Source: Acetobacter ghanensis (GTDB taxonomy: Bacteria > Pseudomonadota > Alphaproteobacteria > Acetobacterales > Acetobacteraceae). From it: 64,000 nucleotides of DNA. Position numbers and translations under genes: made by a program. The stretch is taken from NCBI RefSeq assembly GCF_001499675.1, contig NZ_LN609302.1:590896-654895 (forward strand), given 5' to 3'. Each line of letters begins with the position of its first letter. The stretch's first letter is position 1. A model generated the notes under the pieces. That model was not told the origin of the DNA. It ran no database searches and was given only the letters and a program-made list of their open reading frames with translations. Positions 51,082 to 64,000 of the stretch are shown here, piece by piece.

Positions 51082-51240
51082 CCGGGGGCCTATCGCCCAC
51101 GCTGGTAGACCGAACTCGCCTTCAAGTTGTTCAAGAGCTCCCAGATCATGCGACACTCCGGAGACCTAGCCTGGGGATCCGAGTGAGCTGGCGGCTTAGC
51201 GCGCAGGAAGCAACGGGGCTGGAAATATGTGCTTGCGGGG
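51082..51240 (+). pseudogene. Transposase remnant (IS4-like), interrupted
   Basis: One frame reads AYRPRW, a TAG stop, then TELAFKLFKSSQIMRHSGDL. This resembles the conserved YRxRWQ-E-L-x-F-K-x-x-K-S block of IS4-type transposases. A second stop follows after about 15 residues, and the frame then runs without a stop into the TPR-sulfotransferase frame. Only this short part remains. Confidence 0.5.
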
Positions 51241-51282
51241 CAAATTGACAAGCCAATCAGCGTCCTCCACACATACTCGCGC

Positions 51283-53283
51283 ATGCAGAACGTCAACAAA
51301 GATACCGCTTCCATCCAGAACGGTGGTGCGAATGCAATCAACCTCTCCAGTGAGACAGGCATGGATCAGGCGGTTAATGATGCGCTGCGTTACGCGACCA
51401 CCCTTCTCACCCAAGCGCCTGATCATCCTGAAGCTTTGCTGCTTATAGGAACGATTCATACTTGGCAGCGGCATTTCGTGCAGGCTATCCCATTCCTTCA
51501 ACGTGCCACAGTCTTACTGCCGCAGAATGCTGAAGCTTTTAATACTCTGGGCTTTGCACTGTACAATACTGGAAGACTAGAGGATGCAATTGTCGCTTTC
51601 CGCGAGGCGATCAAATTAAAACCTGACTTCCCCAGCGCACAAACGCGACTGGAAAAGGCCCTGACGGCGCTCGACCATCATAAGAACAGGGTCAAACGCT
51701 ATCATGAACTTCTGGAAATTGACGCTAACATCGAAGAGATTGCCCGCTACCGTGCAGTTCTGGCCGTAGATAGTAAGGATATATCTGCTCTTAATGGTCT
51801 GGGCAAAGCATTGCATGCCTCCGGACGAAGCGAGGAGGCCATTGAGCCTTTTCGTTTGGCTCTGTCCTACAATCCAGTCTGCACGGAGAGTGCGCGCAAT
51901 CTAGTCCAGATTCTGGTCGAGCTTGACCGCGTGGAAGAGGGGATAGCCTGCTGCCGTGCCATTTTGGACCACGATCCAAACCTGCCTGCCTTTCATGCTG
52001 GCGCAGGTTCGTTATTACGCAAAGTTGGGCGCCATGTTGAGGCACTGCACTACCTTGAACAAGCCTGCGCTTTACAGCCTGACAATGCATGGTTTCATGC
52101 CGTACTAGCTTTGATCGCGCGCGAACTCGGCCACATTGATCTGGCAATTACGCATTTGCGTCAGGCAATTACCTTGGATCCGAACGAAACCAACTATTAT
52201 CTAAGCCTTACTCTCCTGACGAAGCTCATGGCCGATGACCCTGCATTGGCCGCCATGCAAATGCTTGTCAAACGAGAAGATACGTTAGGTGATCAGGAGA
52301 AAATGCGCCTTCATTTTGCGCTCGGCAAGGCGCTAGCTGATAGCGGTCAACATTGTACTGCGTTCAATCATCAACTGAAGGCTAATGCGCTCCGTCGTGC
52401 CGCAATCCCCTATGATGAAACACGGATAGTTAAAGGCGCCAGACTTGTACGCAAACACTTTACTGCTGCGGCAATCGCAGCGACTGCCGAGACAGGCCAC
52501 ATTTCGGCATGCCCGGTTTTTATCGTTGGCATGCCGCGATCCGGATCAACGCTTGTTGAACAGATATTGGCCAGCCATCCGCAAGTTTACGGCGCTGGCG
52601 AGGTCAGTACCCTATCCGATACCCTCAAAGATGCTGCCAAACGGTTTCCAGACTGGAAGTTGGGGACTTCGCTGGCGGGTCTGAGTGTACGTGACCGGCA
52701 TTTCATCGCCGAAGATTATCTCAGTCGGTTGAACAAACTGGTAGTCAACTGGGCCGGGGAGCACGCACCAACACGTATTTCCAATAAAATGCTGGATAAT
52801 TTTAACTATATTGGGCTTATTAGGCAGCTATGGCCTAATGCACGTATCATCCATACCGTCCGTGACCCAATAGACACTTGCCTTTCCTGCTTCTCAATCC
52901 CATTTGACCATCTGGATTTTGCATTCGATCTGGGCGAACTTGGCCGCTATTACCATCACTATCAGGAACAGATGGCGCACTGGTCTCGGGTTCTGCCGAA
53001 AGGTGCGATCCTCAATGTTCACTACGAGCATATCGTTGAGAATCTGGAAGCTAGTGCTCGGCGTATCATCGCTTATTGTGACCTGCCATGGGACGAAACC
53101 TGCCTGCGTTTTTATGAATGCCGTCGCAAGGTCATGACTTCCAGTCTGGCGCAGGTCCGTCAACCAATCTATCGCAGTGCTGTCGGGCGCTGGCGTCCAG
53201 ATGCTGCAACTTTGCAGCCATTGCTGGATGGACTTAAAGGGCGGCCGACCAAGCTTAGAACTCCTTTTGAAAGTAGAATATGA
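51283..53283 (+). CDS. TPR-repeat sulfotransferase
   Basis: A protein of about 666 residues. Residues 25-370 hold tandem tetratricopeptide repeats (for example AEAFNTLGFALYNTGRLEDA and ISALNGLGKALHASGRSEEA). The C-terminal third is a sulfotransferase: the PAPS 5'-phosphosulfate loop is VGMPRSGSTLVEQILASHPQ (G416-T423), the 3'-phosphate region is IIHTVRDPIDTCLSCFS, and ILNVHYEHIVENLE follows. Bacterial members of this type usually sulfate surface or secreted molecules. The frame is open back to GTG 51229 and merges with transposase-like sequence, so the natural 5' end may be lost; starts at 51283 or 51361 are possible. The downstream end abuts an IS5-family remnant at its stop codon. No signal peptide or membrane helix. 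Confidence 0.8.
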   Translation: MQNVNKDTASIQNGGANAINLSSETGMDQAVNDALRYATTLLTQAPDHPEALLLIGTIHTWQRHFVQAIPFLQRATVLLPQNAEAFNTLGFALYNTGRLEDAIVAFREAIKLKPDFPSAQTRLEKALTALDHHKNRVKRYHELLEIDANIEEIARYRAVLAVDSKDISALNGLGKALHASGRSEEAIEPFRLALSYNPVCTESARNLVQILVELDRVEEGIACCRAILDHDPNLPAFHAGAGSLLRKVGRHVEALHYLEQACALQPDNAWFHAVLALIARELGHIDLAITHLRQAITLDPNETNYYLSLTLLTKLMADDPALAAMQMLVKREDTLGDQEKMRLHFALGKALADSGQHCTAFNHQLKANALRRAAIPYDETRIVKGARLVRKHFTAAAIAATAETGHISACPVFIVGMPRSGSTLVEQILASHPQVYGAGEVSTLSDTLKDAAKRFPDWKLGTSLAGLSVRDRHFIAEDYLSRLNKLVVNWAGEHAPTRISNKMLDNFNYIGLIRQLWPNARIIHTVRDPIDTCLSCFSIPFDHLDFAFDLGELGRYYHHYQEQMAHWSRVLPKGAILNVHYEHIVENLEASARRIIAYCDLPWDETCLRFYECRRKVMTSSLAQVRQPIYRSAVGRWRPDAATLQPLLDGLKGRPTKLRTPFESRI

Positions 53284-53992: not shown

Positions 53993-56632
53993 ATGCGATT
54001 AGCACGCCGCTTTTCTCTTCTTGCCACCACACTTTGCACTGTCTTCCCTTCCATCTCTGTAGCGGAAACGACAGGAACCACATCAGCACATCGGAAGGTT
54101 TCGCATGAACACTCCGGTGTCGGAGCAAGCACTCAAAATCCTCAGAGTTCCTCCGTATCTTCGGTGGCAGCCACCCATAAAAAAGATAATACCAAAGCCC
54201 TGTATGCCGGGGATGTTGAAACCATAAACGTTTCAACCGGCACCCATTCAACCAACCGTAAGGCTCGACAGAGCACGACTCCGGTTACAGTAGTATCCGC
54301 TGCAACGTTGCGTCGTTCAGGGCAGGTCAATCTCGCAGATTCACTCGTCCGTACCTATGCTTCCATTAACGTGCAGGCCATGGCGGCAGATAGTGCCGCA
54401 CTGACCTCGTCTATCCAGATGCGAGGCCTCAACCCGAACGAAGTTCTGGTTCTGGTTGATGGGAAGCGTCGTCATTCTACCGCAAACATTGTCGCGGATG
54501 CCGGTCCTCAGTTTGGTTCAACTGGTGTTGATTTGAACATGATTCCGGCAAATGCCATTGATCATATTGAAGTGTTGGAAGATGGTGCAGCCGCCATGTA
54601 CGGTTCGGACGCCATTGCCGGTGTTGTAAACATTATTACCAAAAAAGAAGATCATGGCCTGCATATGTCAGCCCAGACAGGAGCTAATGCCTATAACGGC
54701 GATGGCTGGCAATATCAGTTGAATGCCGATGGTGGTTTGAAGTTGGGGGAGGATGGTTATATCCACCTCTCAGGCCAGATCACACATTCTGATCATTACG
54801 TTGTCAAAACAAAAGACCATCGTTTGCTAGGATACTGGCCAGAAGGGGCAACGACGACAGGCTATTACAACGGCCTTGTTGCCAACGCCATGAACTTACC
54901 GCTTGATTCCAACAAGATCATGAGCACGCCAGAAGAAACGCGAGAAAACCTCGCTATTGATTTTGGAAAAAAAATTACAGACGGCATCGATTTTTATGGG
55001 TTGATTACTTATGCTCATCGCTACGGTGAGGCTTACGAAAACTATCGTATTCCGACTATTGCACCAACCTATTACCCGTCCGGTTTTTCTCCACTTGAAA
55101 CCATTCGGGAGAACGATTACGCAGCAACTATTGGCATTAAAGGCGATGATTTTTATGGTTTTGACTGGGATTTAAGTACGACCTACGGTGCGGATGAAAC
55201 CAAAATCGGCAACAAAAATACCGCCAATACCGGTATGCTATCTTCTGATTGCTCGCTTGATCCAACATCCGCCAACTATTCATCCCTTGGATGTGGCTGG
55301 ACGCCCACAAATGTGCGGGCCGAAACCTATAGACTGGCACAATGGACCAATAATCTTGATTTCCGGCGTCACTTTAATATCGCCAAAAAAGTACCAGTAC
55401 TTCTCGCGTTTGGCGCTGAGCACCGGCTGGAAACCTATGACCTGACAGCCGGGGACCCAGCTTCTTATATTCTGGGTGGTACGCAGGGGTATGCCGGTAT
55501 TGGCCCGCAAAGTGCAGGCAGCTGGAGCCGCGATATTTGGGCCGGTTATGTGGATGGAGACTTTCACCCGTTTAAGAATTGGGATTTGGATTTTGCTGGG
55601 CGATTTGAACATTATACCGATGTTGGAAATACGGAAAACGGCAAGGTTTCCACACGTTATGACGTAACCCGCCGTATTGCCTTCCGTGGTACCATCAGCA
55701 CTGGCTTTCGTGCACCAACGCTCCCAGAACAACATTATTCTGCAATGAACGTCGACCCTAATGGAGCATCTGGCCTGTTGCCGGTTGATTCTGAAGCAGC
55801 GCGCACGTTGGGGGCTAGTAAGCTCAAACCGGAACGCTCGGTCAGTACAAGTGGCGGGATTGTTCTTGAGCCGATCAACGGATTTCATATTGAAGCGGAT
55901 GTTTACCAGATCAACCTACGTGATCGGATTGTGGGGGGCGGCACGGTTAATGGTTCAGCTGCGATCTCAGCCATTGAGCAACTGGGGTACCTGCTTCCTT
56001 CTAATGGTCTCATCGCAGACAATGTTTCTGCATACTTCATGACCAACGGTGCCAGCACGCGTACACAGGGGCTGGACATTAAAGCAGATTATACGTTCCG
56101 TTTCCGCACCGCAGGCAGTCTGACAATGACGATGGCGCTCGATCTTAACCGAACTCGTCTGCACCATAATGCGCTAGATACGAATGGTAATCCTCTGCTG
56201 AATGCGCAGAATATTGCCTACATTACTACGGCTTATCCCCGAAGCAAAATTATTCTGAATGCCTTCTACCATTATCAACACTGGGATTTTAACGTACGCG
56301 AAACTCGGTATGGGGAAACCACCTCCATGCTCAGCTACTACGACTGGCAGAACCAGAATACACCCTGCTCTGGGGGCGGAAAGCTGGCTTACTCCAATGT
56401 GTGCTTCAATCAGTTCAAAAACACACCGCGCTGGATGACCGATATTGAAATTGGTTACCGCTTTAACAAAAACTGGCACATGGCTGTTGGCGTCAACAAT
56501 ATTGCAGATGTCAAACCACGCATGGTTGCACAGATCAACAACTCACGTGGCGCGCAGCCGTATGACCAGTTCTCGCTACAGGTGCCTATCACTGGTGCGT
56601 ACTACTATGGGCGTTTGAACGCAGATTTCTAA
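53993..56632 (+). CDS. TonB-dependent outer-membrane receptor
   Basis: An 879-residue receptor. Signal peptide residues 1-24 (MRLARRFSLLATTLCTVFPS, then ISVA). A Ser/Thr-rich linker precedes a TonB-box-like ETINVSTG near residue 80. The plug (about 95-205) includes TPVTVVSAATLRRSGQVNLA, SIQMRGLNPNEVLVLVDGKR, IDHIEVLEDGAAAMYGSDA and IAGVVNIITKK. The 22-strand barrel follows, ending RLNADF with terminal Phe. Such receptors import siderophores, vitamins, oligosaccharides or peptides. It is the first gene inside the inverted-repeat segment; a palindromic operator candidate lies upstream and a terminator downstream. The adjacent oxidase genes suggest that the ligand is their substrate (inference). 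Confidence 0.92.
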   Translation: MRLARRFSLLATTLCTVFPSISVAETTGTTSAHRKVSHEHSGVGASTQNPQSSSVSSVAATHKKDNTKALYAGDVETINVSTGTHSTNRKARQSTTPVTVVSAATLRRSGQVNLADSLVRTYASINVQAMAADSAALTSSIQMRGLNPNEVLVLVDGKRRHSTANIVADAGPQFGSTGVDLNMIPANAIDHIEVLEDGAAAMYGSDAIAGVVNIITKKEDHGLHMSAQTGANAYNGDGWQYQLNADGGLKLGEDGYIHLSGQITHSDHYVVKTKDHRLLGYWPEGATTTGYYNGLVANAMNLPLDSNKIMSTPEETRENLAIDFGKKITDGIDFYGLITYAHRYGEAYENYRIPTIAPTYYPSGFSPLETIRENDYAATIGIKGDDFYGFDWDLSTTYGADETKIGNKNTANTGMLSSDCSLDPTSANYSSLGCGWTPTNVRAETYRLAQWTNNLDFRRHFNIAKKVPVLLAFGAEHRLETYDLTAGDPASYILGGTQGYAGIGPQSAGSWSRDIWAGYVDGDFHPFKNWDLDFAGRFEHYTDVGNTENGKVSTRYDVTRRIAFRGTISTGFRAPTLPEQHYSAMNVDPNGASGLLPVDSEAARTLGASKLKPERSVSTSGGIVLEPINGFHIEADVYQINLRDRIVGGGTVNGSAAISAIEQLGYLLPSNGLIADNVSAYFMTNGASTRTQGLDIKADYTFRFRTAGSLTMTMALDLNRTRLHHNALDTNGNPLLNAQNIAYITTAYPRSKIILNAFYHYQHWDFNVRETRYGETTSMLSYYDWQNQNTPCSGGGKLAYSNVCFNQFKNTPRWMTDIEIGYRFNKNWHMAVGVNNIADVKPRMVAQINNSRGAQPYDQFSLQVPITGAYYYGRLNADF

Positions 56633-56722: not shown

Positions 56723-58325
56723 ATGGCAAGTCCATCACATAGTCAGCCACAATCTCGTAGGCAACTTCTCACGCGTATCGGTGCACTGGCAGGGAGTGCT
56801 GCACTTTATCAGGCCATGACCAGTATGGGGCACGCCATGGGCACGGATTTTTTCTGGCCCGCCCAATCTGTCCGGAGCAAAGCGGGGTACATCCGTGCTG
56901 GTTCTGGGCGCAGGCCTCGCGGGAATGCTCAGTGCTTACGAACTGCGCAAAGCAGGTTATAATGTTAAGGTTCTTGAATTCCAAAGCCGTAGTGGCGGGC
57001 GTAACATCAGCCTGCGTGGAGGGGATACGGTAACAGAGTTGGGGGGAGCAACGCAAAAAGTCAGCTTTGCATCAGGGAATTATATTAACCCCGGCCCTTG
57101 GCGCATTCCTTACCACCATCAAGGACTGTTGCATTACTGCCGTGAGTTTGGTGTACAACTCGAACCCTTTATTGAACTCAACCATAATAGTTGGCTCCAC
57201 TCAACCGGATCGTTCGGTGGTAAGGCGGTAAGATATAGGGAACTCGCTGCAGATTTTAACGGCTTTACGGCGGAGCTGCTGGCAAAGGCGGTGGACCAGC
57301 ATAAACTGGATGATCTGGTGAGTGCGGATGAAGCTGCGCATATTGCTGACGCCATGCGGGGATGGGGCGCGCTGACCTCAGATCTCAGTTATACTAAAGG
57401 TACTATCAGTTCGCTGCGACGTGGGTTTGAAAAACCACAGGGCGGTGGTCTGGATGGCGCTCCTATCCCGTCTGATTTGATGAAGAGGAGCGAAATCTGG
57501 AAGTCTGGTCTGTGGAACTGGATGGCCTTTCACGAGCGACTGGATATGCAGACAACCATGTTCCAGCCTGTTGGGGGGATGGACAATATTGGCAAGGCTT
57601 TCACCAAGCAGGTAAAGGACCTGTTGCAACTGAACTGCAAGGTTACGGCTATTCATCAGGATGCAAGTGGTGTGAGCGTAACATATAATGATATGCAGCA
57701 TGGTGGCGTGGTCAGGCAGGCTAAGGCTGATTACTGTGTTTGCACCATACCACTTTCCATTCTGTCGCAATTGGATGTGCAGGTCAGTGATGGAATGAAG
57801 GCGGCCATAAGTGCCGTGCCATATGCGTCTTCCGTCAAACTTGGTCTTGAGTTCAAGCGGCGTTTCTGGGAGGAGGAAGACCAGATCTACGGTGGTATCA
57901 GTTTTACTGACCAGCCTATCAGTCAGATTTCCTACCCAAGCCACGGTATTTTTTCCAAGGGGCCGGCGGTCTTGCTGGGAGGGTATATGTTTGGTCCTGC
58001 CGCGTATGACTTTGCGGGCATGACCCCACAGGAACGGCTGGAACAGGGTATAAAACAGGGGCTAGCTCTTCACCCTCAATACCGTAAGGAGTTCCTGAAT
58101 GGCGTCAGCTTTGCATGGAGCCGGGTACCCTGGACGTTGGGATGCTGCTCGATGTGGAGTGAGGAAGCGCGTAAAACCCACTACAAAACGCTGTGTTCGA
58201 TTGACCAGCGGCTTGTTCTGGCGGGCGAACATGCGTCGTATGTAGGTTGCTGGCAGGAGGGCGCCATTCTTTCCGCGTTGGATGCGGTTACGCGTTTGCA
58301 CAAACGAGCACTGGGAGCCGCCTGA
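56723..58325 (+). CDS. TAT-exported FAD amine/L-amino-acid oxidase, frameshifted at G4
   Basis: The true start is ATG 56723. Residues 1-55 or so carry a TAT signal (SRRQLLTRIGALAGSAALYQ), then the frame breaks at GGGG (56884-56887). With one G fewer it reads KAGTSVLVLGAGLAGMLSAY and continues to 58325 (about 533 residues). The FAD site is VLGAGLAGMLSAYELRKAGY with LEFQSRSGGR. VPWTLGCCSMWSEEAR and LVLAGEHASYVGCWQEGAIL are the C-terminal flavin and aromatic-cage region of the amine oxidase family (MAO/L-amino-acid oxidase). It oxidises an amine or amino acid to an imine in the periplasm. As read, only a 476-residue form from 56895 without the signal would be made. The stop overlaps the cytochrome start (TGATG), and cytochrome c and RidA follow, so electrons probably go to the respiratory chain rather than only to oxygen. 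Confidence 0.85.
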
Positions 58326-58741
58326 TGCGTAGATTTCTCTTTTTGGGGATGTTGATGTCTGTTGTTGTGCCTATTGGTTTTGCACGGGCGGACAGTGCAA
58401 GTGCCATATCGGGTAAAATGGCCGATTTGCCATCGGGTGAGGCTATTTATCGTCATATCTGCCAAAGTTGTCATATGGCGGACGGACAAGGGGCTGTCGG
58501 GGCTGGGGCACAAATTCCTGCTCTGGCGCATAACCCGCGGTTACAGGTTACAAGTTACCCTGCTACGGTTATCCTTAACGGTTACGGAGCCATGCCATGG
58601 TTTTCTGGTTTGTTAAGCGATAAACAGGTTGCGGATGTAGTGGATTATATTCGCACCCATTTTGGCAATAATTATAAAGATAAAATCAACCCGTCAGAAG
58701 TCGCGTTCATGCGGCCCCATCTGACAGCCGAGGAGCAGTAA
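58325..58741 (+). CDS. Periplasmic monoheme cytochrome c
   Basis: A 138-residue class I cytochrome. Signal peptide MRRFLFLGMLMSVVVPIGFA ends near ARA. The heme site is ICQSCHMADGQG, and the axial Met is in GYGAMPWFSGLLSDKQVADV, followed by a C-terminal helix (VVDYIRTHFGNNY). It starts on the TGATG overlap with the amine oxidase gene and ends 4 nt before the RidA gene. It is the likely electron acceptor of the oxidase (inference from coupling). Confidence 0.9.
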   Translation: MRRFLFLGMLMSVVVPIGFARADSASAISGKMADLPSGEAIYRHICQSCHMADGQGAVGAGAQIPALAHNPRLQVTSYPATVILNGYGAMPWFSGLLSDKQVADVVDYIRTHFGNNYKDKINPSEVAFMRPHLTAEEQ

Positions 58742-58745
58742 ATTC

Positions 58746-59267
58746 ATGCGTGTCTTCAAAATTCTTGGAAATTCGACCCTTTTTGCGGCAACTGCTCTTG
58801 TGGGTATGGGGGTGTCTGCAACAGCACATGCGCAGAGTGATATTGTACGCCATAACGAAGCAACTTTTCCCATTGCCTCGGCGATAGAGGTGCCTGCGGG
58901 TTATTCCACTATTTTCCTGAGCGGCATGGGCGCTCCTGTTATCAACCCGAAGGCCCCTGCAAAAAGTCTGGACGCCTATGGCAACACAGCTACGCAAACC
59001 GAAGGAGCGCTTAAACGGATAGAAGACACGCTAAAAGGCATGGGGCTGACAATGGGCGATGTTGTGCAGATGCATATTTTTATGGTGGCGGATCCACAGA
59101 CCAAAAAGCTTGATTTTGATGGAATGATGCAGAGTTACACAAAGTTTTTTGGCACAAAGGTACAGCCAAACCTGCCGGTTCGTTCTGCTTTTGGCGTAGC
59201 ACAATTGGCTAATCCCGGCTGGCTAGTAGAAATAGAGGTAGTGGCGGTACGCCCCTCCCACCATTAA
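58746..59267 (+). CDS. Exported RidA-family imine/enamine deaminase
   Basis: A 173-residue RidA/YjgF protein with an added signal peptide (MRVFKILGNSTLFAATALVG to ATAHA before QSD). The core has the family pattern TATQTEGALKRIEDTLKGMG, then VVQMHIFMVADP and PNLPVRSAFGVAQLANPGWL, then VEIEVVAV. The Arg of PVRSAFGV corresponds to the Arg that binds the carboxylate in active RidA enzymes, so it should be catalytic. RidA hydrolyses imines released by amino-acid oxidases to keto acids and ammonia. A periplasmic copy directly after an exported oxidase and a cytochrome implies dedicated clean-up of the oxidase product. Confidence 0.9.
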   Translation: MRVFKILGNSTLFAATALVGMGVSATAHAQSDIVRHNEATFPIASAIEVPAGYSTIFLSGMGAPVINPKAPAKSLDAYGNTATQTEGALKRIEDTLKGMGLTMGDVVQMHIFMVADPQTKKLDFDGMMQSYTKFFGTKVQPNLPVRSAFGVAQLANPGWLVEIEVVAVRPSHH

Positions 59268-60967: not shown

Positions 60968-61102
60968 TTCTCCTTAAATTGGCATATGTGTGGGCTTTCA
61001 AGACATTATAGCTATTTATGAAGAGTTGGGCCTGCTAAAATTTTATACTCCTTCCGATTCGGAAGATGCAAAAAAAAATTGGTAGATTTAAGGTGGTTTG
61101 TA

Positions 61103-61924
61103 ATGAGTGTTTCAACGGATGATATTCCGAAGATTATAACTATTAATTCCCGTGATATAGAAGACCGTTCTCTTTTTCCTGATGGATTTTTTGATTTCTA
61201 TGAAGTCCTGAGTTATCGCAATGCGGCTCAGATACTTTCTGCATCCTGTAAGGAGGAGTTTCGCGAATTAACTAATGCCTTGATGTCTTTTAGTATTCTT
61301 CCTGATGATATCATTGTCGGGGGTGGTAATAAATCACGCATAGCCAAAGGTGTTGAAGCACTCTTCCATCCTCTGGGCTGGAGAGAAACGCGTGTCACGG
61401 CAGACCTTTTGATTAATCGCATTACTTATATCGACCCCAGTAAGCGGGGGAATAAAGCTCCGCATGAAATACAGCAATATAAAATTGATTCTTTTGTGGA
61501 TGGTCACAAAATAGATTTTGTAAAAAAGCGTGTGGCATTTGACATGGAATGGAACTCAAAAGACCAAACTTTTGACAGGGATTTGTATGCTTTAAGAAGC
61601 TTTTATGATTGTAACATTATCTCAGCAGGTGTTTTGCTAACTAGAAGTGCAGAGTTAATTCCTGCTTTTAACGAGTTGCAACGTCGATCCGTGAAGGAAA
61701 TGAGTAAAGGTAAGTTTGGTGCATCCACGACATGGATGGGAAAGCTAACTTATCGAATAGAAGCCGGTAGGGGAGGTGGGTGTCCTATTTTGGCTCTTGG
61801 TATTCGACCTTCTCTGATTAAAAATTTTGAGAAGTGGAAAGACGAAAATCCTGTAATACGTGCTGGAGATAGCATTTCTGCTTCTGAAATTTCTTCGGAA
61901 GCAGAAGATGATTCTGAAGATTAA
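61103..61924 (+). CDS. Type II restriction endonuclease, BglII/BstYI-like
   Basis: A 273-residue protein from ATG 61103, which has AAGGTGG 6 nt upstream; a TTG at 61079 would add 8 residues. The catalytic core is KIDFVKKRVAFDMEWNSKDQ then TFDRDLYALRSFYDC, with D138, E149 and K153 as the probable metal and catalytic residues. This matches BglII and BstYI, which cut at GATC-centred sites (AGATCT and RGATCY). The C-terminal tail is acidic. It is convergent with a DNA methyltransferase: the two stop codons share TTAA, forming a restriction-modification pair. The recognition sequence is inferred from the family only. AT-rich relative to the chromosome, as usual for acquired systems. Confidence 0.82.
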   Translation: MSVSTDDIPKIITINSRDIEDRSLFPDGFFDFYEVLSYRNAAQILSASCKEEFRELTNALMSFSILPDDIIVGGGNKSRIAKGVEALFHPLGWRETRVTADLLINRITYIDPSKRGNKAPHEIQQYKIDSFVDGHKIDFVKKRVAFDMEWNSKDQTFDRDLYALRSFYDCNIISAGVLLTRSAELIPAFNELQRRSVKEMSKGKFGASTTWMGKLTYRIEAGRGGGCPILALGIRPSLIKNFEKWKDENPVIRAGDSISASEISSEAEDDSED

Positions 61925-62607
61925 TCTACTGCAATTAATCTAGTATTGCCACGGAGCGTCTTCTTTTGACGTTCTGTGTGGCTGTTATGTTTGTAAGTAT
62001 TCCAGGAAGGTTCATAATCCTCAGCCTGGTTGCCCCATACTGTCCATCCTTCTCGTGGTCCACGAGCAAACATTTCCAGATAAGGACCGGGAGAGCACGC
62101 TTCTATTAAATCATACTGCTCATCAGGCTTTCGGCTATGTTCTCTCTTCCGGGTCGCTAGATAATTAACCTGCGTTCTACCTGGTTGAAGTGTCCTGGCA
62201 TTTTTACCTCGGACACCGAACAGCAGGATTTCGGTCACATTGCGAAAATAAAACCCAACCCCACGCCCATCAGAACCGCCATCCTTGCGGATTTTATGCC
62301 AGATAATATTGGATTTATAGGTGAATCCCCATTCCTGCATTACCCGTAAACCATCAGGTAGCAAAGCATTTGGTACCCACAGATATAGGTGAGCTGTTGG
62401 AGCGACAACATCCTTTACTGGCAAGGCGCATATATCATCCAGTGTCATCGTCAAATAACGTGATAGTCTATGATGTTCTGGAGCGATTTTTCCTGTACGG
62501 TTTGTAAACTGCCAAGGAGGGTCCGCCAGAACAGTTCTAGCCTGACAGTTCTCCGCTACCTCCAGAAAATCTTTTATCGCATTTGGTGGAGAATTACGGT
62601 CTGGCAT
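61921..62607 (-). CDS. MT-A70-family DNA adenine methyltransferase
   Basis: A 228-residue methyltransferase. DPPW at 29-32 (VLADPPWQFTNRTGK) is the catalytic motif of MT-A70/beta-class N6-adenine methyltransferases. LYLWVPNALLPDGLRVMQEW and NIIWHKIRKDGG are the SAM-side blocks. ENT-like segments (REHSRKPDEQYDLIEACSPG) and EMFARGPREGWTVWGNQ close the fold. It would protect the host from the neighbouring BglII-like enzyme. The 3' ends of the two genes overlap by 4 nt. Confidence 0.88.
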   Translation of the reverse strand: MPDRNSPPNAIKDFLEVAENCQARTVLADPPWQFTNRTGKIAPEHHRLSRYLTMTLDDICALPVKDVVAPTAHLYLWVPNALLPDGLRVMQEWGFTYKSNIIWHKIRKDGGSDGRGVGFYFRNVTEILLFGVRGKNARTLQPGRTQVNYLATRKREHSRKPDEQYDLIEACSPGPYLEMFARGPREGWTVWGNQAEDYEPSWNTYKHNSHTERQKKTLRGNTRLIAVD

Positions 62608-62751
62608 TGCATGTCACAATCAAGGTTGGCGAACAAAAAAGAGATACTCTTGCGTTGATAGCGTTCGGATGCTTTAGGTGCAAACGATTTGCTCTTTGGC
62701 AACTTTGGGTTCGACTAAAACATTAAGTTGCATCATGTTCTTGCATTGTTC

Positions 62752-64000
62752 TCACAATGGCAAGTTTTTTCTAGAGGCAAACAAACTTCCCGCATCCCAA
62801 AACTCAGGATATTTCACGCTTTCTGCAACCCTTTTGAGGTTCACAATATCCACATCATCGAAATAGACAGTGCTTCCCACTGACTTGTCGTGGCTTTCAT
62901 GCCTCAAAAAGTCATCAATCCAGGATTCACGTAACCCACCTTCACCATGCTCATGAATGTTTCTGAGTTTGGTCGAGACGTTATGCCGGAATGAATGGAA
63001 CACCACGCTCTTGCCAATGCCCAGACGTGATTTGAACTTGCTGAAGTCTCTCTGGAAGTGAGCAGAACGCTTGTTGTCTTGCCCCTTAAAATCAAGGTCA
63101 TGGAACAGGTAATGACGTTTCTGGTTCGTGGCTCTCTGGGCAAGGTCCAGCAATCCGGCTTCCTGCAAGGCCGTGCAAATGGGAACAACACGTTTCCCGG
63201 CCTCTGTCTTCGCACTCCATTCTGTCCAGGGTTTGCCTTTAACGGCAGGGTGGTCCTGCACCAGAATGCAGGGAATACCTTGTATCTCCTGAATGTCCTG
63301 TGGTCTTAAACGACAGATTTCTTCCAGTCGCATCCCTGTATAAGACGCAATCCCCACAATCATGGAAGCTGCCTTGTGGCTGATGGTGCCAAACTGCCAA
63401 GGCTGGCCTGCAATAGCCTTTAAGTCGCTGTCACTCCAACGCATACGATTGGTTTTGGACTGGGTGTCGAACTGCCAGCCACCTGTGAACACGTTACGGT
63501 CCACAAGGTCACGCAGGAGGAAATGTTTCCAAAGCCCGGAAAGCTTGGTGAAATGGTTTTTGACGGATTTCCCGGAGATACGTGGCAGTTTGCGTTTCTT
63601 CGCATCTGCCACAAATTCCTGAACTGTTCGGGTGTGATTGCGCTGTTTGCCATAACTCTCCGGTAGCTGTTCCATCAGGGCTTTGAAATGCCCAACATCT
63701 GCCCCGGTATAATCCCGCATGGGTTTATCCCCACAGACCTCCAGAAAGCGTTTGAAGGTGCGTTCGTAGGATTTGACCACAGTGGATTTGACTGTGGTGT
63801 CCTTGCTTTCCAGAAAAATTTTAATCGCTTCTGAAAACAGGGGAGAAGGCTTCTCCTTGGGAGCCAGAAAGGCTTTCATGTCCTTAATCTGGCTCTGGAT
63901 ATCCGTCAGAGCCGGAAGGGTGGCCTTGGTCTTTTTCAGGTCTGTGACAGTGCGTTCCAGCAGATGCACACTTTTACCAGTCAGTGTTCTGGCTTTCTCC
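62752..64000 (-). CDS. Tyrosine recombinase/integrase, 5' end outside window
   Basis: The minus strand is open from the window edge to 62752; an internal GTG at 63969 would give 405 residues, but the frame continues upstream (EKARTLTGKSVHLLERT). A SAM-like core-binding domain (FSEAIKIFLESKDTTVKSTV to SYGKQRNHTRTVQEFV) leads to the catalytic domain. TGMRLEEICRLRPQDI has the first Arg, FHSFRHNVSTKLRN the His-x-x-Arg, and GSTVYFDDVD the Tyr. HESHDKSVG matches the last His/Trp box. It integrates mobile DNA such as a genomic island or prophage. It lies beside the restriction system; no attachment repeat was found inside the window. Confidence 0.9.
   Translation of the reverse strand, partial: EKARTLTGKSVHLLERTVTDLKKTKATLPALTDIQSQIKDMKAFLAPKEKPSPLFSEAIKIFLESKDTTVKSTVVKSYERTFKRFLEVCGDKPMRDYTGADVGHFKALMEQLPESYGKQRNHTRTVQEFVADAKKRKLPRISGKSVKNHFTKLSGLWKHFLLRDLVDRNVFTGGWQFDTQSKTNRMRWSDSDLKAIAGQPWQFGTISHKAASMIVGIASYTGMRLEEICRLRPQDIQEIQGIPCILVQDHPAVKGKPWTEWSAKTEAGKRVVPICTALQEAGLLDLAQRATNQKRHYLFHDLDFKGQDNKRSAHFQRDFSKFKSRLGIGKSVVFHSFRHNVSTKLRNIHEHGEGGLRESWIDDFLRHESHDKSVGSTVYFDDVDIVNLKRVAESVKYPEFWDAGSLFASRKNLPL

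Follow-up and report, generated by a model that had tools for sequence, protein, structure and literature searches.

What would an exported flavin oxidase, an exported cytochrome c and an exported Rid protein do together in the periplasm of an acetic acid bacterium? The question is raised by three consecutive genes on the forward strand behind a TonB-dependent receptor gene in the 2.84-Mb genome of Acetobacter ghanensis, within the 64,000-nucleotide stretch of contig NZ_LN609302.1 analysed here (hereafter the window). A preliminary description of this DNA had proposed that an amine or amino acid is oxidized to an imine, that the electrons pass to heme c and that the imine is then hydrolysed. 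Our analysis makes it probable that these genes together encode a periplasmic L-amino acid:cytochrome c oxidoreductase and an imine hydrolase devoted to it. The operon belongs, on good evidence, to a type already described, and its mechanism can be formulated more precisely than in the accounts consulted. The features concerned, in window coordinates, are as follows.

56723..56868 (right border approximate), forward strand: twin-arginine translocation (TAT) leader of the oxidase, from the translation and an alignment with five relatives.
56820..58325, forward strand: flavin adenine dinucleotide (FAD) part of the oxidase, an open frame of 501 amino acids with first listed start GTG 56895 (Pfam Amino_oxidase, 187 bits).
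58325..58741, forward strand: exported mono-heme cytochrome c (Pfam Cytochrome_CBB3, 49.5 bits, or Cytochrom_C; single CXXCH at 58460-58474).
58746..59267, forward strand: predicted exported Rid3-type imine deaminase (Pfam Ribonuc_L-PSP, 59.5 bits; catalytic Arg at 59181-59183).
53993..56632, forward strand: TonB-dependent receptor (Pfam TonB_dep_Rec_b-barrel and Plug), immediately 5' of the oxidase.

The TGA of the flavoprotein gene (58323-58325) is overlapped by the start of the cytochrome gene at 58325 and a gap of 4 bases precedes the Rid gene, which agrees with the tight packing first described. The three Pfam families, Amino_oxidase, Cytochrome_CBB3 and Ribonuc_L-PSP, also catalyse or accept reactions that fit together in the proposed order. 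Export leaders were present for all three products as had been claimed, with the reservation that the TAT leader of the oxidase lies out of frame with the FAD domain in the window.

The arrangement had been regarded as an uncharacterized system, and this part of the preliminary description has to be withdrawn. The lao-cccA-ridA genes of Gluconacetobacter diazotrophicus PAL5 (GDI2456-GDI2454) were published in 2016 with an in vivo phenotype, and the passages on this locus report that inserting Tn5 into lao (two insertions) does away with indole-acetic acid (IAA) and approximately 95% of indolic compounds, with loss of tryptophan turnover, and that transcripts of all three genes fall in the lao mutant (PMC5053998). 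TAT export was predicted for the lao product, the cytochrome c and RidA were proposed as its co-workers, and ccm mutants making 5% of IAA are cited in the same source (PMC5053998). A Fur site has additionally been predicted upstream of the nuo-lao gene set of G. diazotrophicus, according to PMC9368920. Judged by sequence, the window operon is orthologous to lao-cccA-ridA, with the same three genes in the same order, a TAT flavoprotein and orthologous proteins. It differs in its Acetobacter host, in the TonB receptor directly upstream on the same strand and in the interrupted flavoprotein frame; Rid export is not stated in the passages of PMC5053998 that describe the operon.

The published primers gave a further means of comparison. 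Those for lao and cccA mapped to their published positions (1209-1360 and 121-340, counted from 7830 and 9431, respectively) in a G. tumulisoli locus (L018) with 1-4 mismatches, and those for ridA matched the same locus with 2-3 mismatches, 9 bases off the published positions given the start used. Against the window itself the primers had 5-9 mismatches and fell mostly elsewhere, as expected at such distance. In G. diazotrophicus PA1 5 the Rid protein (P0161) was 59% identical to its counterpart in the window and likewise had a leader. A later biochemical test of the oxidase-cytochrome-Rid trio was not found in the literature searched, which was mainly open-access.

Conserved linkage in other genomes, one of the two points on which the preliminary description had let its proposal stand or fall, was evident. 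A genome-collection scan confirmed 135 stretches, of which the best 80 were kept, representing 79 distinct loci; a cytochrome gene was counted within 400 bases downstream of the oxidase and a Rid gene within 1.2 kb, using tblastn since the cytochrome profile also caught shadow open reading frames (ORFs) of the oxidase. The cytochrome gene was directly behind the oxidase in 77 of the 79 loci (exceptions L068 and L076), with Alpha-, Beta- and Gammaproteobacteria represented, and the Rid gene was behind the oxidase in 56. The oxidase-cytochrome order was kept down to 54% oxidase identity and the Rid gene behind the oxidase down to 67%, and we regard the gene order as conserved beyond chance. On a tree of the 80 oxidases, Rid linkage was clustered, requiring 6 changes where shuffling gave a mean of 20.3, a contrast that near-copies inflate.

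The loci without a Rid gene directly behind the oxidase were not uniform. In a Sphingomonas locus (L078) the Rid gene is upstream of the oxidase, while in L067 it is close by on the opposite strand with a TonB receptor, and in some others the downstream sequence was short (935 bases in L066, too little to tell; 1456 in L077; 2026 in L073). Fusions of the oxidase with a cytochrome or a Rid domain were not found among the best 120 of 6202 and the best 120 of 4837 matches, from 7999 candidates scored each time. Six loci (L053, L056, L058-L061) form a paralogous group with receptor, oxidase and cytochrome and no Rid gene, and some species of this group also carry a Rid-bearing operon. Separately, the Acetobacter musti locus (L068) has a same-family TAT oxidase with no cytochrome gene detected nearby, possibly a natural reversion to an oxygen-using oxidase.

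The oxidase of the window was 92-94% identical to those of A. fabarum, A. lovaniensis, A. pomorum and A. okinawensis. The best match of its FAD part in the Protein Data Bank (PDB) was the L-amino acid oxidase (LAAO) of Rhodococcus opacus (2jae, 285 bits), followed by an ancestral tetrapod LAAO (143 bits). The intact A. fabarum ortholog, modelled with AlphaFold (mean predicted local distance difference test score 79.9; predicted template modelling score 0.79), again had 2jae as its best fold match, with template modelling scores of 0.76 (query) and 0.84 (target) at 34-35% identity, and fold ranks 1-42 among the best 50 matches were L-amino acid, L-glutamate or L-lysine oxidases. Among the PDB sequence matches listed (60 of 81) and the best 50 fold matches, monoamine oxidases ranked lower and NicA2 was absent. 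Two residues aligned with R. opacus LAAO, Arg 57102-57104 (WRIP) and Tyr 57984-57986 (GGYMF), are invariant in 26 relatives; we take both to bind the substrate carboxylate, a literature search for the residue roles having returned nothing. R. opacus LAAO differs from the window enzyme, beyond the modest identity, in being known as an oxygen-using oxidase. Because LAAOs were the best sequence and fold matches and this Arg and Tyr are conserved, L-α-amino acids are favoured over amines as substrates, which points to an oxidase of the predicted L-α-amino acid type. The amino acid side of the earlier 'amine/amino-acid oxidase' was therefore retained and the generic amine oxidase was not. As a separate observation, the TAT leader of these oxidases, distant relatives included, is strongly conserved past the RR motif (e.g. 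LYQAMTSLGHA), a possible sign that the leader stays uncleaved as an anchor or has some further function.

The best PDB matches of the Rid protein were the Rid3 proteins PFL1385 (PFL_1385, 9bkc) and PSPTO3006 (PSPTO_3006, 9bka). In the Rid3 group the Arg and Glu of RidA are retained while its Tyr is replaced by Ile, as described in PMC4433059, and in the window protein I43, R146 and E162/E164 were invariant across 17 aligned sequences, the Ile position having been assigned by eye. R146 corresponds to the carboxylate-binding catalytic Arg that had been noticed at the outset. The protein therefore carries the predicted Rid3 hallmarks of an imine deaminase, and PFL_1385 and PSPTO_3006, with which it shares the Arg, the Glu and the Rid3-specific Ile, are reported in PMC5619798 as Rid3 members able to hydrolyse the imines that an L-amino acid oxidase produces. 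The sections of PMC5619798 on these proteins mention no cytochrome partner, and its main text lacks the words 'signal' and 'periplasm'.

In the window protein an N-terminal stretch of approximately 30 residues, containing a hydrophobic core and an A-x-A motif, lies before the Rid domain, and 54 of the 56 oxidase-adjacent Rid proteins likewise had 23-36 residues before the domain with a hydrophobic core, an A-x-A-like site and an early K/R; the two that failed (L017 and L069) have doubtful script-chosen starts. This rule is a weak one devised ad hoc, and since a leaderless paralog in the same genome (L002) also passes the hydrophobicity rule, the telling evidence for export is the N-terminal extension itself. 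Among the other three genomic Rid matches, L001 and L002 lack such an extension. The suggestion of an exported Rid copy thus stands as a prediction, resting on a Sec-type (general secretory) extension that its counterparts share.

For the cytochrome, the export rule was passed by 62 of 77 neighbouring proteins; 10 of the 15 failures lacked the early K/R alone, and in these the start was probably chosen too late. Its nearest solved structure was the heme domain of a quinone alcohol dehydrogenase cytochrome subunit, a weak match at 38 bits, and the closest heme proteins of its own genome, in a comparison of 13 loci, were two- and three-heme proteins. This likeness to multi-heme proteins would fit a return of electrons to the quinone pool.

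That the flavoprotein would reduce the cytochrome in preference to oxygen is suggested by a rule from related enzymes. According to PMC12224317, many of the flavin amine oxidoreductases that combine a TAT leader with a cytochrome c encoded in the same operon prove to be dehydrogenases, reacting poorly with oxygen and fast with the cytochrome. NicA2 and Pnao with CycN of Pseudomonas putida S16 (PMC9396064) and the other flavin amine dehydrogenases described (PMC12224317) share with the window operon the plan of a TAT flavin amine oxidoreductase with an operonic cytochrome c acceptor. Both features occur in the intact near-identical protein described below and in the relatives; the window's own leader is out of frame. 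The NicA2-type enzymes were found by NicA2 similarity, while the window enzyme belongs to the LAAO branch and is accompanied by a Rid protein, and applying the rule to this branch is an extrapolation because PMC12224317 sampled NicA2 relatives. A eukaryotic parallel, the Chlamydomonas LAO1 and LAO2/RidA system, combines a periplasmic LAAO with a Rid partner, releases ammonium and oxo acids and forms IAA from tryptophan; it differs in forming hydrogen peroxide, and no cytochrome c partner is named in the relevant passages (PMC10805672).

In the mechanism that we favour, the TAT-exported flavoprotein would take a hydride from an L-α-amino acid to yield a 2-imino acid, with tryptophan implied as a substrate by the ortholog and other amino acids likely. 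The reduced flavin would be re-oxidized by the operon's own cytochrome c and not mainly by oxygen, and the exported Rid3 protein would hydrolyse the imino acid to a 2-oxo acid and ammonia before side reactions occur. The cytochrome would then be re-oxidized without a cytochrome c oxidase, most likely by the cytochrome c peroxidase conserved in the genus or by a multi-heme subunit that reduces quinone. We infer the oxidation and hydrolysis steps because both families have tested members, and the transfer to cytochrome from the TAT leader and operonic cytochrome rule together with the ccm mutants reported for the host of the ortholog; the re-oxidation route is a guess by exclusion.

This exclusion came from the respiratory genes. 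An onward path to a cytochrome c oxidase is not available by the obvious route, as the sole heme-copper oxidase found in the genome was the quinol oxidase CyoABCD (CyoA and CyoB above curated cut-offs) and a search for a cytochrome c oxidase yielded none: PF00115 retrieved CyoB and a degenerate COX1-like protein, and PF00116 retrieved CyoA alone. The COX1-like protein (L085; 422 amino acids, at approximately 2.102 Mb) scored 52 bits against a CtaD cut-off of 671, and a 'deranged' COX1 has been described for Acetobacter (PMC10715153). Its gene, inspected by eye, adjoins that of a CtaB-like protein. Across 49 Acetobacter genomes the oxidase was present in 29 (expect value 1e-60), CtaD exceeded the cut-off in one and was just below it in one more (G010 and G012), and a CtaD-type subunit was absent from 28 of the 29 oxidase-bearing genomes, that of A. 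ghanensis included (exception G010). Weak TIGR02891 matches of 36-90 bits in frames of at least 500 amino acids occurred in some genomes of the genus (e.g. G003, G019, G020 and G032) and may be other heme-copper oxidases or nitric oxide reductases. Outside this set, 15 further oxidase-bearing genomes were chosen by hand: CtaD was over the cut-off in six (L062, L063, L075, L078, L080 and L083), scored 649-666 bits with TIGR02891 in four (L018, L024, L025 and L036), which we name likely CtaD and did not count as over the cut-off, and had nothing above 600 bits in five (L021, L034, L040, L048 and L057). By these profile matches the operon occurs both with and without a CtaD-type oxidase.

Because 28 of 29 oxidase-bearing Acetobacter genomes lack a CtaD-type subunit, electrons would leave by another route, probably through a cytochrome c peroxidase or the quinone pool. 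In A. ghanensis two cytochrome c1 matches were found along with a single match to the CCP_MauG peroxidase, whose gene lies approximately 0.6 Mb from the operon; as CCP_MauG was present in all 49 Acetobacter genomes, its presence is not correlatable with that of the oxidase. Tentatively, and with less than even confidence, we propose that a periplasmic L-amino acid:cytochrome c dehydrogenase and its exported imine hydrolase have been retained by acetic acid bacteria even though most Acetobacter genomes examined lack CtaD, and that amino acids supply the operon's cytochrome c pool with electrons, which leave it through cytochrome c peroxidase or, via multi-heme dehydrogenase subunits, into the quinone pool.

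Several observations weigh against an amino acid:cytochrome c oxidoreductase with its own imine hydrolase. In 23 of the 79 loci the Rid gene is not directly behind the oxidase, so Rid is not indispensable, and the search of the host genome for a cytochrome c oxidase was negative. The flavin-side Lys (57837-57839), which helps oxidases to react with oxygen, is retained; nearly all dehydrogenases keep it as well (PMC12224317). The enzymes compared in that source are NicA2 relatives, with 'RidA' and 'amino acid oxidase' occurring 0 times in its main text. As the lao mutant also has lowered cccA and ridA transcripts, its phenotype does not separate the three genes (PMC5053998). Finally, the flavoprotein frame of the window is itself broken.

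This last point underlies the alternative that survives best, which concerns the strain and is compatible with the other explanations, all framed at the species level: the break would be real, leaving at most a leaderless FAD domain and downstream genes expressed without a working partner. The leader (from 56723) and the FAD domain (to 58325) are in different reading frames, so 56723-58325 is not a single open frame, and the open frame of 501 amino acids compares with at least 532 in the 38 other full-length matches of the genus search (44 match rows in 49 genomes, five partial and 39 full-length including the window's own). The leader was in frame with the oxidase in all 79 related loci; the oxidase gene of the A. 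okinawensis locus (L039) is disrupted further downstream with its leader still in frame. Against a dead operon, an intact 533-amino acid database protein shares 472 of 476 residues over the FAD part and has the first 43 residues identical to those of the window, and this 99%-identical protein is the representative of an 80-sequence cluster. The ratios of non-synonymous to synonymous substitution (dN/dS) of the FAD part against three relatives were 0.020, 0.022 and 0.017, rough values at dS of 1.6-2.5, with no sign of decay, and the FAD part appears to be under strong constraint. Furthermore, when the DNA was aligned with that of five relatives (A. fabarum, A. lovaniensis, A. pomorum, A. okinawensis and A. 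lambici), the frame difference fell in a homopolymer tract between leader and FAD domain, a frequent site of sequencing errors.

For a wider frame check, the ORFs in 1.2 Mb of sequence from a congener (G026) were compared with 400 kb of A. ghanensis sequence. Of 63 orthologs, nine looked out of frame, as did 8 of 54 in the reverse direction; five of the nine had their first shift within the initial 80 bases, a region in which starts are over-called, and in three, the oxidase included, the A. ghanensis sequence had a run of at least five identical bases at the shift. When the locus ORFs of the five relatives were compared with the window, 14 had an ortholog and five were flagged, all five being the oxidase. 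As near-identical relatives are intact, the break would be private to the strain or an assembly error, that is, either a recent strain-specific break or an artefact. The oxidase copy in this assembly may be inactive, and an operon that is dead in this strain is possible, though on balance we lean against it.

Alternatively, the flavoprotein may be a true oxygen-using periplasmic LAAO, with the cytochrome c feeding a cytochrome c peroxidase that removes its hydrogen peroxide. Its closest solved relative, R. opacus LAAO, is such an oxidase, the flavin-side Lys is invariant in 26 aligned relatives, CCP_MauG occurs throughout the genus and the genome yielded no cytochrome c oxidase. However, flavoproteins that have a TAT leader and a cytochrome c in their operon reacted poorly with oxygen (PMC12224317), the peroxidase gene is remote from the operon, and CCP_MauG is also present in the 20 of 49 genomes without an oxidase match at 1e-60, making this explanation unlikely. 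It is considerably less likely still that the three genes adjoin for regulation alone, with Rid serving other periplasmic imines and the cytochrome serving other dehydrogenases: the loci in which Rid is not directly behind the oxidase would allow it, but the cytochrome is adjacent in nearly all loci across three proteobacterial classes, and the Rid gene placed before the oxidase in Sphingomonas indicates an association that outlives rearrangement. An amine substrate such as tyramine or a polyamine, which the database names 'flavin monoamine oxidase' and 'monoamine oxidase' of many relatives would favour, is the least credible of the alternatives, given that LAAOs are the best matches by sequence and fold with monoamine oxidases lower among the matches listed, that the presumed carboxylate-binding Arg and Tyr are invariant and that lao mutants lose tryptophan turnover.

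The neighbouring receptor had been suggested to supply the substrate, an idea that has some support. A receptor of the same TonB family adjoins the oxidase in 22 of the 79 loci (13 on the same strand, nine divergent), and this linkage required 6 changes on the oxidase tree against 20 when shuffled (76 of 80 rows scored); the PDB matches of the receptor cover its plug region and gave no indication of a substrate. Just 5' of the receptor, at 51229-53283, is a gene for a TPR protein with a C-terminal sulfotransferase domain, distant relatives of which occur near a TonB receptor in L076, L077 and L079. At 61079-63969 a BglII-like restriction endonuclease gene (Pfam Endonuc-BglII, 140 bits) is convergent to an MT-A70-type methyltransferase gene with a phage-type integrase adjoining, perhaps a small restriction-modification island just 3' of the operon; a search for tRNA genes found none in the window.

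In summary, the operon joins three subjects, namely the cytochrome c-using flavin amine dehydrogenases, the Rid imine hydrolases and tryptophan-derived auxin formation in plant-associated bacteria. It carries the dehydrogenase concept over to the LAAO branch, in a form approachable with three small proteins. If the peroxidase exit is true, amino acid oxidation would be coupled to the removal of peroxide from the periplasm. The operon also sharpens the question of what role the periplasmic cytochrome c of acetic acid bacteria has once the oxidase that emptied it is gone.

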